Shown: positions 48,725 to 54,429, counted from the stretch's first letter. The stretch is DNA of 64,000 nt from Flavisolibacter ginsenosidimutans (GCF_007970805.1 NZ_CP042433.1:2728001-2792000), one strand, 5' to 3'. The notes: generated by a model not told the origin, from the letters alone. Program-made: numbers and translations.

Positions 48725-49234
48725 TTACTTAGAAGCAGCGGGTGCGTAGTCAACTTTTTGCGCAGCCATGAGGCCTTTGTCTCTGCGCACTTTGCTCCAA
48801 TATTTTTTGTGCACCAGCAACATGCCGAAGCTTTCGCCCCGGTATTTATCCAAATGCTTGTGGTGCATTTTGTGCGCCCAGCGAATGGCGCGAACGTAGG
48901 TGTTTTTGCTTTTGCTGAACCATTTGAAGCGTTGGTGAATGATAACGTCGTGTACCAAAAAATACGCTGCGCCGTAAAGCATGATACCAAAGCCAATGGC
49001 CTGCATCCACCACACATTGTTATACGTGCCAAAGCCAATCAAACACATGCTGGGCACGGCAAAAATGACGAAGAACCAGTCGTTCTTTTCAAAGAAGCCG
49101 GGTTCTTTTTGGTGATGGTCGCGGTGCAGGTACCAAAGAAAGCCGTGCATCACGTAACGGTGGGTAAGCCACGTGATGCCTTCCATTACGATGAAGGTTC
49201 CGGCCAAAACAATTGTATAAAACACGGCTTCCAT
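48725..49234 (-). CDS. crtZ: beta-carotene hydroxylase CrtZ
   Basis: 169 residues of the fatty-acid-hydroxylase superfamily. Four histidine clusters bind the di-iron centre: HRYVMH (25-30), HRDHH (37-41), HDVIIH (95-100) and HKMHHKH (121-127). Hydrophobic helices place it in the inner membrane. CrtZ adds hydroxyl groups at C3 of the beta-ionone ring to make zeaxanthin-type xanthophylls. The substrate needs a cyclised carotene, but no cyclase gene is in this window. It ends the crt run, 10 bp after idi. Confidence 0.9.
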   Translation of the reverse strand: MEAVFYTIVLAGTFIVMEGITWLTHRYVMHGFLWYLHRDHHQKEPGFFEKNDWFFVIFAVPSMCLIGFGTYNNVWWMQAIGFGIMLYGAAYFLVHDVIIHQRFKWFSKSKNTYVRAIRWAHKMHHKHLDKYRGESFGMLLVHKKYWSKVRRDKGLMAAQKVDYAPAASK

Positions 49235-49244
49235 TCTCTTTCAT

Positions 49245-49778
49245 TTAAACGGCTACGTAATTCTTCTTCCACCATTTTTCAATCTGCGGAAAAGCAAGTT
49301 TAAACCATGCGGTAAACAAAGAAGGTTGTTCTTTCAGCATGAGCGCAAGGTCTTCTATTTCATGGTAAGCAACCGCTGCTACTTCTTTGTTGTTTGGCTT
49401 TATCTCTCCGTCAAATTCGCCCACAAACACATGATCGTATTCGTGTTCAATCAAACCGTTTTCCACGCCGGCTTTATACGTAAAGGCAAAGATTTCTTTT
49501 AGCGGCGTATTGAAACCAAGTTCTTCCTTCAATCGCCGCGCCGCCGCTTCCTCTACGCTTTCGCCGGGATAGGGATGACTGCAACAGGCATTCGTCCACA
49601 ACAGTCCACCGTGGTATTTTTCAGCAGCCCGTTGTTGCAACAACATGCGTCCATTTTTGTCGAAGATGAAAACCGAAAAAGCCCGGTGCAGTAAACCCTT
49701 TTGGTGGGCTTCCATCTTTTCCATAACACCGATTTCATCGTCCTGCGGCGAAACCAGTATGACTTTCTGTTCCTGCAT
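49245..49778 (-). CDS. idi: isopentenyl-diphosphate delta-isomerase, type 1
   Basis: 177 residues with a Nudix-like fold. TNACCSHP (62-69) carries the catalytic Cys, and EHEYDHVF (111-118) the catalytic and metal-binding Glu/His region. It interconverts isopentenyl and dimethylallyl diphosphate, the building blocks for the phytoene made by crtB. Position between crtB and crtZ supports a role in pigment supply. A palindromic repeat separates it from crtB. Confidence 0.92.
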   Translation of the reverse strand: MQEQKVILVSPQDDEIGVMEKMEAHQKGLLHRAFSVFIFDKNGRMLLQQRAAEKYHGGLLWTNACCSHPYPGESVEEAAARRLKEELGFNTPLKEIFAFTYKAGVENGLIEHEYDHVFVGEFDGEIKPNNKEVAAVAYHEIEDLALMLKEQPSLFTAWFKLAFPQIEKWWKKNYVAV

Positions 49779-49794
49779 GATTCAAATATTTTGT

Positions 49795-49878
49795 GAGACG
49801 TGAAAGTGAAACGTGAGATTAACGTTCACTTCGGATTGAATGACTTTACGGTTTCACGTTTATCGTCTCACGTTTCAC
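49795..49878. repeat. palindromic GTGAAACGTGAGA repeat inside the crt operon
   Basis: GTGAAACGTGAGA (49806-49818) and TCTCACGTTTCAC (49866-49878) are exact reverse complements. More GAGACGTGAAA and TTTCACGTTTAT words are included. It fills the crtB-idi gap and could fold in the message. Confidence 0.65.
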
Positions 49879-49879
49879 T

Positions 49880-50722
49880 TCATTCTATCAGCCGCAACCC
49901 GTTTTTTACACTTGCCCGCAAAACAATGTAGGCTTTGTGATAATTGGGAATGCGCACCCGCTGCTGCAAAATACGTTGCGGTTCAATTTGCTTTATTTTC
50001 CTGAACAGCGAGCCGTAATATTTGTACGCAACATACACACCAAACCTTGCCTTGAGCGGCAGTTTTAAAATGCCTTTGTAGGCAATTTCAAAATCCTTCT
50101 CGATGTCTTCCTGAATGCGTTGTTTATCACTTTCGGTGAAGTTGTGAAAGTCACAACCGGGAAAATACATGCGCGACAGGTCAAAAAAATCGGCCCGCAT
50201 GTCGCGCAAAAAATTGACTTTCTGAAAGGCCGCTCCAAGAGCCTTTGCCGGGCCCTTCAGGCTTTCGTATAAGTCTTTGTTGCCTTCACAAAAAACGAAA
50301 AGACACATCAAACCCACGACTTCGGCAGAGCCATAAATGTATTCGTCATAGCCCTGACGGTCGTAATGGTTTTGCGTTAGGTCGCTTTCCATGCTGTTGA
50401 AAAAAGCACGAATCAGATCATGATCAATCCTGAATTGATTTACCGTTTTTTGAAAGCTGTTTAGAATGGGATTTAAGCTGATGCCTCTCTCAATGGCATC
50501 GAAGGTTTCCTTTTGAAATTGCTCCAACAAATCTTGTTTATCGTGTTGGTGAAACGTGTCCACAATTTCATCGGCAAAACGAACAAAACCGTAAATATTA
50601 AAAACCGGTTGCCGCAAGTCTTTGTGCAAAAGCCTGATGGCCGATGAAAAAGATGTGCTGTAACACAGGGTTACTTGCCTGCTGCATTCGCCGCTAACGC
50701 GATGGAACAAATCAATCGTCAT
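49880..50722 (-). CDS. crtB: phytoene synthase CrtB
   Basis: 280 residues of the squalene/phytoene synthase family. The first Asp-rich motif is DEIVD (51-55). The second lies in NFLRDMRADFFDLSRMYFP (170-188). Both bind Mg-diphosphate. CrtB condenses two geranylgeranyl diphosphates to phytoene, the first committed step. It begins 7 bp after crtI on the same strand and is very probably cotranscribed. Confidence 0.93.
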   Translation of the reverse strand: MTIDLFHRVSGECSRQVTLCYSTSFSSAIRLLHKDLRQPVFNIYGFVRFADEIVDTFHQHDKQDLLEQFQKETFDAIERGISLNPILNSFQKTVNQFRIDHDLIRAFFNSMESDLTQNHYDRQGYDEYIYGSAEVVGLMCLFVFCEGNKDLYESLKGPAKALGAAFQKVNFLRDMRADFFDLSRMYFPGCDFHNFTESDKQRIQEDIEKDFEIAYKGILKLPLKARFGVYVAYKYYGSLFRKIKQIEPQRILQQRVRIPNYHKAYIVLRASVKNGLRLIE

Positions 50723-50729
50723 ACACCTG

Positions 50730-52202
50730 CTAATTGAACAACTTGAGTAATTCTTTTGACACCACTTCGCCGCTGATTAAACTTGGCGGCACACCCGGAC
50801 CGGGCACGGTAAACTGACCGGTATAAAAAAGATTTTTTACTTTCTTGCTCCGGCAAGAAGGACGGAAAATTGCTGTTTGCCGAAGGGTATTGGCAAGACC
50901 GTAAGCATTGCCTTTGTACGAATTATACTCACTTACAAAATCCGAAACCGAAAAAGCTTTTTTGAAAACAACGGCATCGGCAATGGATTGCCCGGTGTGC
51001 TTTTCCAACCGCTGAATAATCCGTTGAAAATATTGTTCCCGCAATTCTTCCGTATCGTCTTTCAAGCCCGATGCAACGGGTATTAACAACACCAGGTTTT
51101 CGCAACCTTCCGGTGCAACGCTGTCATCGGTTTTAGAAGAAACACTCAAATAAAACAAAGGTTCTTTTGGCCATTGCGGTTTTGCATAAATTTCACCGGC
51201 GTGTTGATCGAACGGAACATCAAAAAACAGCGAATGATGTAAAACATTTTGCAGCTTTTTGTTTAACCCAACGTAATACAAAAGGCAGGACGGCGCCAGC
51301 ACTTTTTTATTCCAGTAATCATCGTTGTACGTGCGCCATTGTTGCGGCAACAAATGCGATTCGGTGAATTGATAATCGGCACCGCTGATAACGGCATCGG
51401 CTTCGTAAATGGCCTTATCAGTTATCAGCCTTTTTGCCTTGCCGTTCTCAATAATTATTTCCTGCGCGGCTTCGTTGAACCTGAATTCAACGCCCAGTTC
51501 CTCGGCCAATTCCTGCATTGCTTTTACAATACTGAACATGCCGGCTTCAGGATACCAGGTGCCGCCAACAATGTCGGCATAATTCATCAGGCTGTAAAGC
51601 GCCGGCGTGTTTTGCGGCAAGGCACCCAAAAACAAAATGGGGAACTCCATCAACTGCCGCAAGCGCGGATGCTGAAAATGTTTTGCCACATGCGACTGAA
51701 TCGAAGTAAACACATCCAGCCTGAACACGTTTTTTATGACGTTCCAATCCAAAAATTCCGTGAGCGATTGACCGGGTTTGTACACCAGGTCCTGCATGCC
51801 GATTTTGTATTTAAGCGAAGCTTCTTTTAGGTATTTGTCCAGCTTCTCTCCAGCGCCTTTTTCAAACGATTCAAAAACGTTTTTGAATTCTCCATAATCA
51901 GCGGGAATGTCGGTATGGCCATCGTTCCAATAAACACGGTACGAAGGACTGAGACGAAGGAGCGAATAATAATCCGCAACGCTTTTACCGAATTGCGCAA
52001 AGAAGCGTTCAAACACATCGGGCATCCAATACCAACTCGGGCCCATGTCGTAGGTAAAGCCTGCTGCTTTCAGTTGTTGCGCACGGCCCCCGGCGGAAGA
52101 ATTTTTCTCCACTACCGTTACCTTCCATCCTGCTTTTGCCATAAAAGCGGCCGACGAAAGTCCGGCAAAGCCCGCGCCTATAATGACAACCGATTTGCTC
52201 AC
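50730..52202 (-). CDS. crtI: phytoene desaturase CrtI
   Basis: 490 residues starting with GTG 52202, which overlaps the stop of the sigma factor gene as GTGA. The FAD-binding motif GAGFAG is at residues 9-14. PSWYWMPDVFERFF and the C-terminal NLFYTGQFTVPGPGVPPSLISG match CrtI-type desaturases. The enzyme converts phytoene to lycopene or a related polyene at the membrane. The 4-bp overlap with the ECF sigma gene makes joint translation likely. Confidence 0.93.
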   Translation of the reverse strand: MSKSVVIIGAGFAGLSSAAFMAKAGWKVTVVEKNSSAGGRAQQLKAAGFTYDMGPSWYWMPDVFERFFAQFGKSVADYYSLLRLSPSYRVYWNDGHTDIPADYGEFKNVFESFEKGAGEKLDKYLKEASLKYKIGMQDLVYKPGQSLTEFLDWNVIKNVFRLDVFTSIQSHVAKHFQHPRLRQLMEFPILFLGALPQNTPALYSLMNYADIVGGTWYPEAGMFSIVKAMQELAEELGVEFRFNEAAQEIIIENGKAKRLITDKAIYEADAVISGADYQFTESHLLPQQWRTYNDDYWNKKVLAPSCLLYYVGLNKKLQNVLHHSLFFDVPFDQHAGEIYAKPQWPKEPLFYLSVSSKTDDSVAPEGCENLVLLIPVASGLKDDTEELREQYFQRIIQRLEKHTGQSIADAVVFKKAFSVSDFVSEYNSYKGNAYGLANTLRQTAIFRPSCRSKKVKNLFYTGQFTVPGPGVPPSLISGEVVSKELLKLFN

Positions 52203-52678
52203 CGCTCAATTTGTTTTTGTAAAAGTTTTTTGGCAAAATGAATGCGGCTTTTAATCGTGCCCAGCGGCTCGTTCAGCGCATAAGCAATTTCGTGATACTT
52301 GTAACCGTGCAGGTAAAGGGTGCAGGCCTTTTTAAAAATGACCGGCATATCGTGAACGGCCCCGTTTATTTCTTTTAGCCGAAGCAGCGACTCAGACGAC
52401 AAACCGTAAGGCGAAACAGATTGCCTGACCACTTCCATTACTGCTTTCTTGCGGGCCTTGCGGCGGTATTCGTTAATGAAGATGTTGCGCATAATGGTAA
52501 ACAACCAAGCCTTAATGTTCGTATCCGGCTCGTATTTTTCGCGGTAAGTAAAGGCCTTGCAAAGCGTTTCCTGGCACAGGTCTTTCGCCGATTCGTAGTC
52601 TTTGGTTAAGGTAATGGCAAATGGTTTTAAGCCATCGGCATGGCGCAAAACCATGCTGTTGAATTCGTGCGTCCCCAT
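52199..52678 (-). CDS. ECF-type RNA polymerase sigma factor of the carotenoid operon
   Basis: 159 residues. Sigma region 2 lies at about 10-75 (KDLCQETLCKAF, AWLFTIMRNIFINEYRR). Region 4 is at about 105-155 (YLHGYKYHEIAYALNEPLGTIKSRI, helix-turn-helix). The gene is the first of the sigma-crtI-crtB-idi-crtZ run and overlaps crtI by 4 bp. No anti-sigma gene is adjacent. In myxobacteria the ECF factor CarQ drives light-induced carotenoid genes; a similar role here is inference. Transcription probably starts at the TAGCTTTG at 52701-52708 (minus strand). Confidence 0.87.
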   Translation of the reverse strand: MGTHEFNSMVLRHADGLKPFAITLTKDYESAKDLCQETLCKAFTYREKYEPDTNIKAWLFTIMRNIFINEYRRKARKKAVMEVVRQSVSPYGLSSESLLRLKEINGAVHDMPVIFKKACTLYLHGYKYHEIAYALNEPLGTIKSRIHFAKKLLQKQIER

Positions 52679-52700
52679 TTTTGTTTAAAATTTTCTGCCT

Positions 52701-52769
52701 CAAAGCTAAACAAGATTTTCAAACCAAAAACAACTTTGTTTAAAAAATTATTCAAACATCTTAAACAAA
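52701..52769 (-). promoter_or_regulatory. promoter and inverted-repeat operator before the sigma-crt operon
   Basis: On the minus strand a perfect -7 element TAGCTTTG (52701-52708) lies 23 bp before the sigma factor ATG. Further up, TTTGTTTAA (52735-52743 on the plus strand) and its reverse complement TTAAACAAA (52761-52769) form a 9-bp inverted repeat with 17 bp between. Extra TTTGTTTA-like words occur at 52681 and 52706. It is a likely binding site for the MerR/B12 regulator. Confidence 0.5.
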
Positions 52770-52782
52770 ATACTTGCCGGAA

Positions 52783-53661
52783 TTAGCTTATTGCCTGGAT
52801 ATACGTTTGAACGGCATCGAGGGATTGAAGCATGGCCACGTTAGCAAGAGGGCTTCGTTTTACCAGTTGGGCCACAAAGCCCGAGAGAAGAACGGTGCAG
52901 CCGGTGGCGTTTGCGCTCAGGTGCTGCAGAAAGCGTTGAAATTTAGAGTGGCCGGGAAAAGATGTAAGATGCGAGTACACGTACTGCGGCCTTTTTGCCT
53001 GCATAATATAATCCATGTCTTTTAGCGGCACGTTGGCTCCCAGGTAAATAACCGGCAGGCTTTTTTTGCGAAGAAGATAGTAAACATACAAGAGGCCAAT
53101 CTCGTGATGTTCGCCTTCGGGCAGGAACAAAATAAAAAGCGGTGCGTTGTTCTGTGGGAGTGGAAGGCCGCCAATAGCAAAGATGATTTTTTGCCGGATG
53201 ATGGCCGACACCAAATGTTCCTGCACGGGGCGCAGGCGATTGGTTTGCCAAAGAATACCCACTCGTTCCAAGAAACGAAACACCACCCCCGAAATGGTTT
53301 TTTCGATGCCTTGCCTTTGTATTTCTTTGGTCAGCAGGTGTTCAAGTTCGTGACTTTTTAAATCAACGGTGCAGCCAATAAGCTCGTTCACGATGAATTC
53401 ATCTTTCGCGTCGGGCTGATTCAGGCCCAATACCGCTTCTGTGCGTTGCTCAGGAACCATTTCATCAATGCGGGAAATTTTATAGCCGTATTTATTCAGC
53501 AACGCAACGGTGAGAAGTGTTTTCAGTTCCTCGTTGTTGTAGCGCCGAATGTTAGTGGACGTACGCGAAGGCCGCAAAAAATGATAACGCTGCTCCCAAA
53601 TGCGAATGGTGTGTGCCTTGATGCCGGAAAGTGATTCGAGTTCTTTGATCGTAAAGCTCAT
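52783..53661 (-). CDS. MerR-family regulator with cobalamin-binding domain (CarH/LitR-like)
   Basis: 292 residues from ATG 53661. The N-terminal MerR helix-turn-helix spans about 1-70 (FTIKELESLSGIKAHTIRIWEQRY). The C-terminal part has the W-x9-EH motif (W138, E148, H149) and ExHxxG (E184, H186, G189). These are the cobalamin-capping and binding motifs of CarH-type photoreceptors. Such proteins use adenosylcobalamin as chromophore: they repress in the dark, and light breaks the cobalt-carbon bond and releases them from DNA. It lies 104 bp upstream of the sigma-crt operon, on the same strand. Confidence 0.85.
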   Translation of the reverse strand: MSFTIKELESLSGIKAHTIRIWEQRYHFLRPSRTSTNIRRYNNEELKTLLTVALLNKYGYKISRIDEMVPEQRTEAVLGLNQPDAKDEFIVNELIGCTVDLKSHELEHLLTKEIQRQGIEKTISGVVFRFLERVGILWQTNRLRPVQEHLVSAIIRQKIIFAIGGLPLPQNNAPLFILFLPEGEHHEIGLLYVYYLLRKKSLPVIYLGANVPLKDMDYIMQAKRPQYVYSHLTSFPGHSKFQRFLQHLSANATGCTVLLSGFVAQLVKRSPLANVAMLQSLDAVQTYIQAIS

Positions 53662-53697
53662 CACCTTATTGACAAACAAAAAAAGCTTTGGTTGATT

Positions 53698-54429
53698 TTA
53701 CAGTGTGGAGTTAAGCAAAAGACCGCTTTCTTTTAGCCGGCTAAATGTGGCGCTCGATGAAAGTTTTTGCAAGGCCGCAAGGTGCCGCGGATTGTGAAGG
53801 TCGGTGCCGGCAAGGCTGTAGTAATTCTTTTTGCAAAGATATTCGGCCAGTTCCTGCACCGATTTGCCGTAGTAGCCGGTAAGGGAAAGAAGGTTCAGTT
53901 GAAACAGGCAACCGGCTTCTTTTAGTTCATCAAACGTCTGTTTGCGCTGTGCTAAATAAATGTATCGTTCGGGGTGAGCAATGACAGGTATATAGCCTTG
54001 TATTTGTAGTTGAAAAAGTACTTGCTGCAAGTCCATCGGCGCGGTGATCATTGAAAATTCGACCAGCACTTTGTTGCCGCTGATGGGAAGCAGCGGCTCC
54101 TTGGCCTTCAGGTTCTCTTCAAAATACTCGTCAATAAAATACTCAGCAGCGGCCTGCAATTCCATGCTGATGCCTTCTTCGGCCATTGCTCCTTTCAGTC
54201 CTTCCAAGCCTTTTGCAATGATGTCTGCCGTGTTGGGATAAACTTCCCAAAGAATGTGCGGTGTGGTGACGAGTTTTTTATAGCCAAGTTTCTGAAGGCC
54301 TTTAATCAGTTCAAGCGAAGCGGCCATATCAGGCGCACCGTCGTCAATGCCGGGAATAAGGTGCGAGTGCATATCGGCATGAAGCCAGCTTAAGTCAAGG
54401 TCAGCAGATTTTTTTCCAAAAAACAACAT
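53698..54429 (-). CDS. PHP-type tyrosine-protein phosphatase (CpsB/YwqE-like)
   Basis: 243 residues. LHADMHSHLIPGIDDG (metal-binding His/Asp), TTPHILWEVYP, AAEYFIDEYF, VIAHPERY and AGTDLHNPRH give the metal ligands of the PHP phosphoesterase fold. CpsB-type enzymes dephosphorylate the tyrosine kinase that controls capsule or exopolysaccharide export. The polysaccharide genes on its right support that role; no kinase gene is in the window. It ends 36 bp before the CarH-like gene. Confidence 0.85.
   Translation of the reverse strand: MLFFGKKSADLDLSWLHADMHSHLIPGIDDGAPDMAASLELIKGLQKLGYKKLVTTPHILWEVYPNTADIIAKGLEGLKGAMAEEGISMELQAAAEYFIDEYFEENLKAKEPLLPISGNKVLVEFSMITAPMDLQQVLFQLQIQGYIPVIAHPERYIYLAQRKQTFDELKEAGCLFQLNLLSLTGYYGKSVQELAEYLCKKNYYSLAGTDLHNPRHLAALQKLSSSATFSRLKESGLLLNSTL

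Follow-up and report, generated by a model that had tools for sequence, protein, structure and literature searches.

A predicted light-responsive series cascade of a CarH/LitR-like MerR regulator and an ECF sigma factor at a carotenoid locus of Bacteroidota

What might a B12-type MerR regulator and an ECF sigma factor do together at the head of one carotenoid operon? We addressed this question in a stretch of 64,000 nucleotides (nt) from Flavisolibacter ginsenosidimutans (the window) and in related genomes. On the minus strand, the genes merR, sigma, crtI, crtB, idi, and crtZ follow one another in this order (Table 1), and the sigma stop codon and the GTG start of crtI share a 4-nt overlap, GTGA. 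An earlier note on this DNA had described a CarH-like merR with the Wx9EH and ExHxxG motifs in front of an ECF sigma gene, and the GTGA overlap with crtI followed by crtB, idi, and crtZ; both descriptions were confirmed, coordinates included. Searches of Pfam and NCBIfam gave no match for crtZ, which was assigned because of its histidine motifs and its ~50-80% identity to the same-position copies in relatives. The crtB-idi gap (49779-49879) harbors an inverted-repeat-like stretch, GTGAAACGTGAGACG ... CACGTTTCAC ... CACGTCTCAC, which resembles a dispersed intergenic repeat. Directly upstream of merR lies a PHP-type phosphatase-like gene (DMHSHLLPGIDDG, 53698-54429) that is kept in relatives, also at loci L037 and L043.

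Table 1. Predicted genes and candidate regulatory elements of the locus (window positions)
Feature	Position	Strand	Basis or remark
merR, CarH/LitR-like regulator (MerR HTH + B12-binding four-helix + Rossmann domains)	52783..53661	-	ATG start 53661
ECF sigma factor gene, 159 aa, without linked anti-sigma	52199..52678	-	Pfam Sigma70_r2 + r4_2
crtI, CrtID-type phytoene desaturase	50730..52202	-	GTG start; NF058655 759 bits, cut-off 640
crtB, phytoene synthase	49880..50722	-	PF00494 (SQS_PSY)
idi, isopentenyl-diphosphate isomerase	49245..49778	-	TIGR02150 + NF002995, both above cut-off
crtZ-type carotene hydroxylase	48725..49234	-	HX4H + HX2HH motifs, position, identity to relatives
Distal operator dyad TTGTTTAAGATGTTTGAATAATTTTTTAAACAA	52736..52768	-	Exact TTGTTTA-N19-TAAACAA; ~-94 from sigma ATG in most family loci
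Proximal operator dyad TTGTTTAGCTTTGAGGCAGAAAATTTTAAACAA	52681..52713	-	Overlaps promoter -7 element; ends 2 nt before sigma ATG
Candidate -7 element TAGCTTTG	52701..52708	-	Fits TAnnTTTG; inside proximal dyad
Candidate ECF-type merR promoter TCAACCAAAGCTTTTTTTGTTTGTCA	53670..53695	-	-35 CAAC, 16-nt spacer, -10 TGT

The conservation of merR-sigma-crtI in the phylum, which the note had proposed to check, turned out to be extensive. Chitinophagaceae typically have the order merR-sigma-crtI-crtB(-idi-crtZ); the regulator had a match in 76 of 118 genomes of this family (paralogues only in some of these), and the same order was also found in one Cyclobacteriaceae genome, in Pontibacter, and in two further families (f8 and f9). 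Because it is conserved across families, the gene arrangement is far beyond chance. Family f5 carries merR-crtI-crtB-crtZ without sigma and probably represents flavobacteria, since Flavobacterium and Nonlabens clusters have been described with that arrangement (PMC5887021, PMC11855829). The suggested translational joining of sigma and crtI is present here, but it is a genus-level detail: among the genomes examined, the GTGA overlap was restricted to the window genus, and most relatives have short gaps (≤40 nt in 94 of 129).

An anti-sigma gene was sought beside and between merR, sigma, and crtI, and none was found at the locus, whose neighbors are merR and crt genes. The sigma orthologue is crt-linked in other families and is far closer than most paralogues; a flavobacteria-type genome had none. 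Sigma is thus predicted to be an ECF factor under transcriptional control without an anti-sigma, presumably exerted by MerR binding at its promoter dyads (see below). The note had drawn a comparison with CarQ of myxobacteria, but the control of sigma is not CarQ-like, as no anti-sigma is linked. Parallel control by a CarH and a CarQ system was rejected, as there is no anti-sigma and the dyads precede sigma.

Next, we consider the regulator as a B12 sensor. In ATG numbering, Wx9EH corresponds to W138, E148, and H149, and ExHxxG to E184, H186, and G189. Pfam detected MerR_1 and B12-binding_2 above cut-off and B12-binding below its cut-off, and a search against PDB sequences matched Thermus thermophilus CarH (TtCarH) with an E value of 1e-20. 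The structure model (pLDDT 92.1) had its best PDB matches in TtCarH (5c8e/5c8d), with the best fit to dark-state CarH and a TM-score of ~0.8 between the cobalamin domains. Model and Pfam together give a CarH fold with MerR HTH, four-helix, and Rossmann B12-binding domains. The match to NCBIfam NF052513 (CarH; E 4e-29, 101.9 bits) stays below the equivalog cut-off of 400, and we therefore name the protein CarH/LitR-like and not a CarH equivalog. Compared with the published CarH signature, D/ExHx2G/P-x41-SxT/V-x22-27-GG (PMC9304148), ExHxxG is followed here by 40 residues, SxL, and SG, versus x41, SxT/V, and GG. A cobalamin adenosyltransferase is encoded in the window genome.

The five AdoCbl-contacting residues (W, E, H, and the ExH pair) are intact in 106 of 109 merR-sigma-crtI loci, and the His that follows the Trp in TtCarH is present in only three of these 109; the window protein has Q139 at this position. 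In TtCarH, this His takes the upper ligand position once photolysis has occurred, giving the bis-His light state; the H132A variant was reported to be mostly tetrameric in light, and an earlier report had disassembly (PMC10442372). The residue occurs in many, not all, CarH homologues and is not a defining feature (PMC9304148). Because of its rarity here, the light-release step of these MerR proteins may differ from that of TtCarH.

The missing bis-His residue and the low CarH score would also fit a CarA-like regulator that works without B12 or light and answers a different cue, for example an antirepressor or redox state; this would leave the remainder of the cascade proposed below intact. Furthermore, a few relatives lost parts of the B12 motif yet keep merR-sigma (L029, L089, and L184). 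We regard this as unlikely, given the conserved W, E, H, E, and H residues and CarH fold; Myxococcus CarA itself lacks the Trp (PMC9304148), and the photolyase in the second tier (see below) points to light. Two paralogous CarH-like regulators are encoded in the same genome (G000:C1:1001320-1002108, L074, and G000:C1:1684013-1684720, L075); one retains the B12 residues, with ExHxxP, the Trp and the lower His are missing from the other, and neither has light or crt genes nearby.

The gap between merR and sigma contains a pair of 33-bp dyads, TTGTTTA-N19-TAAACAA, with a spacing of 55 bp. The 5.08-Mb window genome has no other exact match, and the dyad-bearing promoter has sigma as its first gene. 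The housekeeping -7 element of Bacteroidota has the consensus TAnnTTTG. Relatives that carry two dyads almost always have them 55-57 bp apart, with the proximal one lying over such an element; a TGTTTAACTTTG-like block is nearly invariant in 92 anchored relatives. The binding region proposed in the earlier note, 52701-52769, contains the distal dyad in full and cuts through the proximal one. With up to two mismatches allowed and expectations taken from shuffles, a dyad was found downstream of merR in 105 of 117 merR-sigma-crtI loci (4.35 expected) and in 14 of 17 merR-sigma loci. It was also detected in 10 of 19 sigma-less merR-crtI loci (flavobacteria-type), where it precedes crtI, and in 1 of 47 merR loci without crt or sigma nearby. 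When merR does not adjoin sigma (G011, G003, G045, G057, and G039), the dyads stay in front of the sigma-crtI operon, indicating that the site belongs to the target operon. A role as a multi-target regulon site was rejected: genome-wide, matches with ≤2 mismatches were no more frequent than in the control (85 vs 94), and thus the dyad probably serves one target operon.

The half-sites, TAAACA, fit the CarH core TnnACA. The known CarH operator consists of three tandem 11-bp direct repeats with this core and overlaps the promoter (PMC9304148); the half-sites described here also overlap the promoter, but they are inverted within 33 bp per dyad instead of tandem. Sequence leaves the sign of regulation uncertain. 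In Streptomyces, activated LitR promotes litS transcription (PMC12705666), and MerR could likewise activate sigma in light rather than repress it in the dark. However, the proximal dyad lies over the -7 element and the start region, where a bound protein would be expected to block polymerase, and we consider light activation improbable.

What, then, would sigma transcribe? An ECF-type element, [GAC]AAC-N16/17-TGT, precedes merR in 88 of 106 merR-sigma-crtI loci (2.7 expected; median position -33 from the ATG) and in 13 of 15 merR-sigma loci. No such element was found before merR in the 19 sigma-less merR-crtI loci. It was present at 12 of 13 crt-type merR genes that do not adjoin sigma and at ~1 of 20 paralogues. 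Where crtI is unlinked from sigma, 23 of 27 non-redundant loci have the element before crtI (1.1 expected), the presence of sigma in this family being verified in G156 only. In G156, merR, dyads, and sigma stand alone and crtI is on another contig; crtI of this family generally lacks a dyad and has the ECF-type element instead. Before sigma (7/135), operon crtI (1/126), and crtB/idi (13/204), the element was at or near background.

In the window genome, the candidate promoters of merR and of a solitary crtY are weak matches (1.1% and 0.65% of random windows, respectively, score as high), and there was no genome-wide excess of the element (41 matches vs 51 in the control). Single matches thus prove little. 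A pattern search in this genome and its sister detected the element before the solitary crtY (window genome), dxs (both), and a photolyase gene (sister); for this reason, the photolyase was examined throughout the family. It carries the element in 31 of 40 genomes with the system (1.24 expected) and in 4 of 29 relatives without it (0.68 expected; Fisher p 1e-7), and a weight matrix trained on merR promoters only separated the two groups (AUC 0.79, p 2e-5), which were set by a crt-type merR match, with p values that ignore kinship among the genomes. An orthologue of the tested photolyase was not found in the window genome, where the second-tier candidates are the solitary crtY and dxs.

Could the element instead be a second kind of MerR site, with everted half-sites, so that sigma is a passenger or has other targets? 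Some copies read TAAACAA...TTGTTTA, which resembles the dyad half-sites in reversed order, and merR and sigma co-occur within Chitinophagaceae, so that the photolyase comparison by itself does not distinguish between them. Three observations argue against this. The flavobacteria-type genomes have merR and dyads, no sigma, and no element before merR at any of 19 loci; the element varies (A, G, or C before AAC) at a base that the operator keeps; and its fixed spacer of 16-17 nt and near-fixed distance to the start codon are those of -35/-10 elements. We therefore judge a MerR site here to be quite improbable and read the element as a predicted sigma promoter.

Several further genes were noted in connection with the element. 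An SRPBCC-family gene has it 29-41 nt upstream of its start at L061, L062, L064, L169-L171, L175, and L183, and the same gene in the sigma-less loci L237, L248, L253, and L255 is without it. The window genome was searched for a CarR-type lycopene cyclase without success; a CrtY-type cyclase was found, unlinked from the locus. This crtY (L382, G000:C1:4440790-4441966) stands alone behind a possible sigma promoter; its counterpart in the sister Flavisolibacter ginsengisoli (L109; 62% identity) shares a 15-kb stretch with the crt cluster. A tspO link considered for the window genome (L366) was discarded, as the match falls within a coding sequence.

The genes, the residues, the conserved dyads, and the conserved ECF-type motif, which depends on whether a genome carries the system, are direct observations. 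From them we infer the protein bound at each site, whether regulation is positive or negative, and the dependence on light and B12, and we propose as the probable reading a light-responsive cascade in series, in which MerR controls the sigma-crt operon and sigma drives a second tier. In the dark, AdoB12-bound MerR on the two tandem dyads would block the housekeeping-type promoter of sigma-crtI-crtB-idi-crtZ. Light would break the Co-C bond of AdoB12, MerR would leave the DNA, and the carotenoid enzymes would be produced along with sigma. In turn, sigma would open AAC-N16/17-TGT promoters, those of the photolyase and of merR itself, the latter amounting to delayed negative feedback. In lineages with crtI outside the sigma operon, sigma would also drive crtI; depending on the lineage, other crt genes may join these targets. 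The two-tier light switch suggested in the earlier note from a B12-type regulator and a sigma factor is thus supported in part by independent conserved DNA signatures, but its tiers look arranged in series and not parallel in the myxobacterial style. In flavobacteria-type genomes, a dyad lies directly before crtI without sigma. More tentatively, with the odds slightly against it, the circuit may be Bacteroidota-wide: a dedicated ECF sigma gene between an older MerR operator and crtI would have converted a light switch of one operon into a cascade that includes a photolyase regulon and delayed negative feedback (sigma makes its own repressor), governed by a B12 sensor that signals light without the bis-His state of TtCarH.

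The closest precedent is LitR-LitS of Streptomyces coelicolor, in which a B12-type MerR controls an ECF sigma gene and the sigma transcribes crt (PMC5401885, PMC12705666); the earlier note does not name this system. The cascade logic is shared, here as a prediction from conserved DNA elements. In contrast to LitR-LitS, the present system belongs to a different phylum, its sigma gene heads the crtI operon and shares the dyad-bearing promoter, and the predicted sigma targets are merR, the photolyase, and unlinked crtI; the two sigmas are compared here by role. In T. thermophilus, LdrP, a second regulator under CarH/LitR, activates crt and phrB (PMC5401885). That system has the same MerR-B12 fold, Wx9EH and ExHxxG motifs, and two-tier logic, but LdrP belongs to the CRP family, whereas the second regulator here is an ECF sigma, and the equivalent of His132 is Gln. 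Myxococcus xanthus likewise has a B12 MerR repressor at a housekeeping crt promoter and an ECF sigma in light-induced carotenogenesis. There, an anti-sigma restrains CarQ, whose pathway is separate from that of CarH (PMC9304148); in contrast, the merR-sigma-crtI locus has no CarR/CarS-type genes, and sigma is placed downstream of MerR. MliR of Bizionia (PMC9478572) was discarded as a relative, as the text of that paper contains no link to B12, CarH, or crt.

Among Bacteroidota, light-induced carotenoids have been reported for Chryseobacterium lacus, with the regulator unidentified (PMC7064467), and we found no worked-out CarH/LitR circuit for the phylum in the literature searched. Already known are the cascade logic (Streptomyces) and the presence of merR and rpoE in one crt cluster: Echinicola marina has the same kinds of genes together, there as annotation only, without analysis of operator, promoter, or regulon (PMC8683446). 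As far as the searched literature goes, the phylum is new for such a circuit, and so are its paired inverted dyads, the position of sigma at the head of the crt operon, the feedback predicted from sigma to merR, and the near-absent bis-His residue. The near-universal lack of a His132 equivalent questions the generality of the TtCarH light-release mechanism. The predicted operators and second-tier promoters are directly testable in culturable genera such as Flavisolibacter, Sediminibacterium, and Pontibacter.

Two further features of the family are recorded here. The gaps between sigma and crtI were searched for motifs, and no common promoter was found. Terminator-like hairpins follow sigma in 9 of 26 long-gap loci (L012, L020, L037, L038, L063, L069, L089, L129, and L176; 0.6% in shuffles). 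For some of them, the distance to crtI is too short for a promoter to fit in, and attenuation is possible; the hairpins were left out of the evidence for the cascade. In seven genomes (G095, G069, G088, G071, G030, G113, and G064; loci L037, L043, L029, L052, L058, L059, and L060), merR-sigma is kept without a crtI detectable in a search at E 1e-60. In these genomes, the pair may serve something besides CrtI; idi adjoins it in four of the loci.
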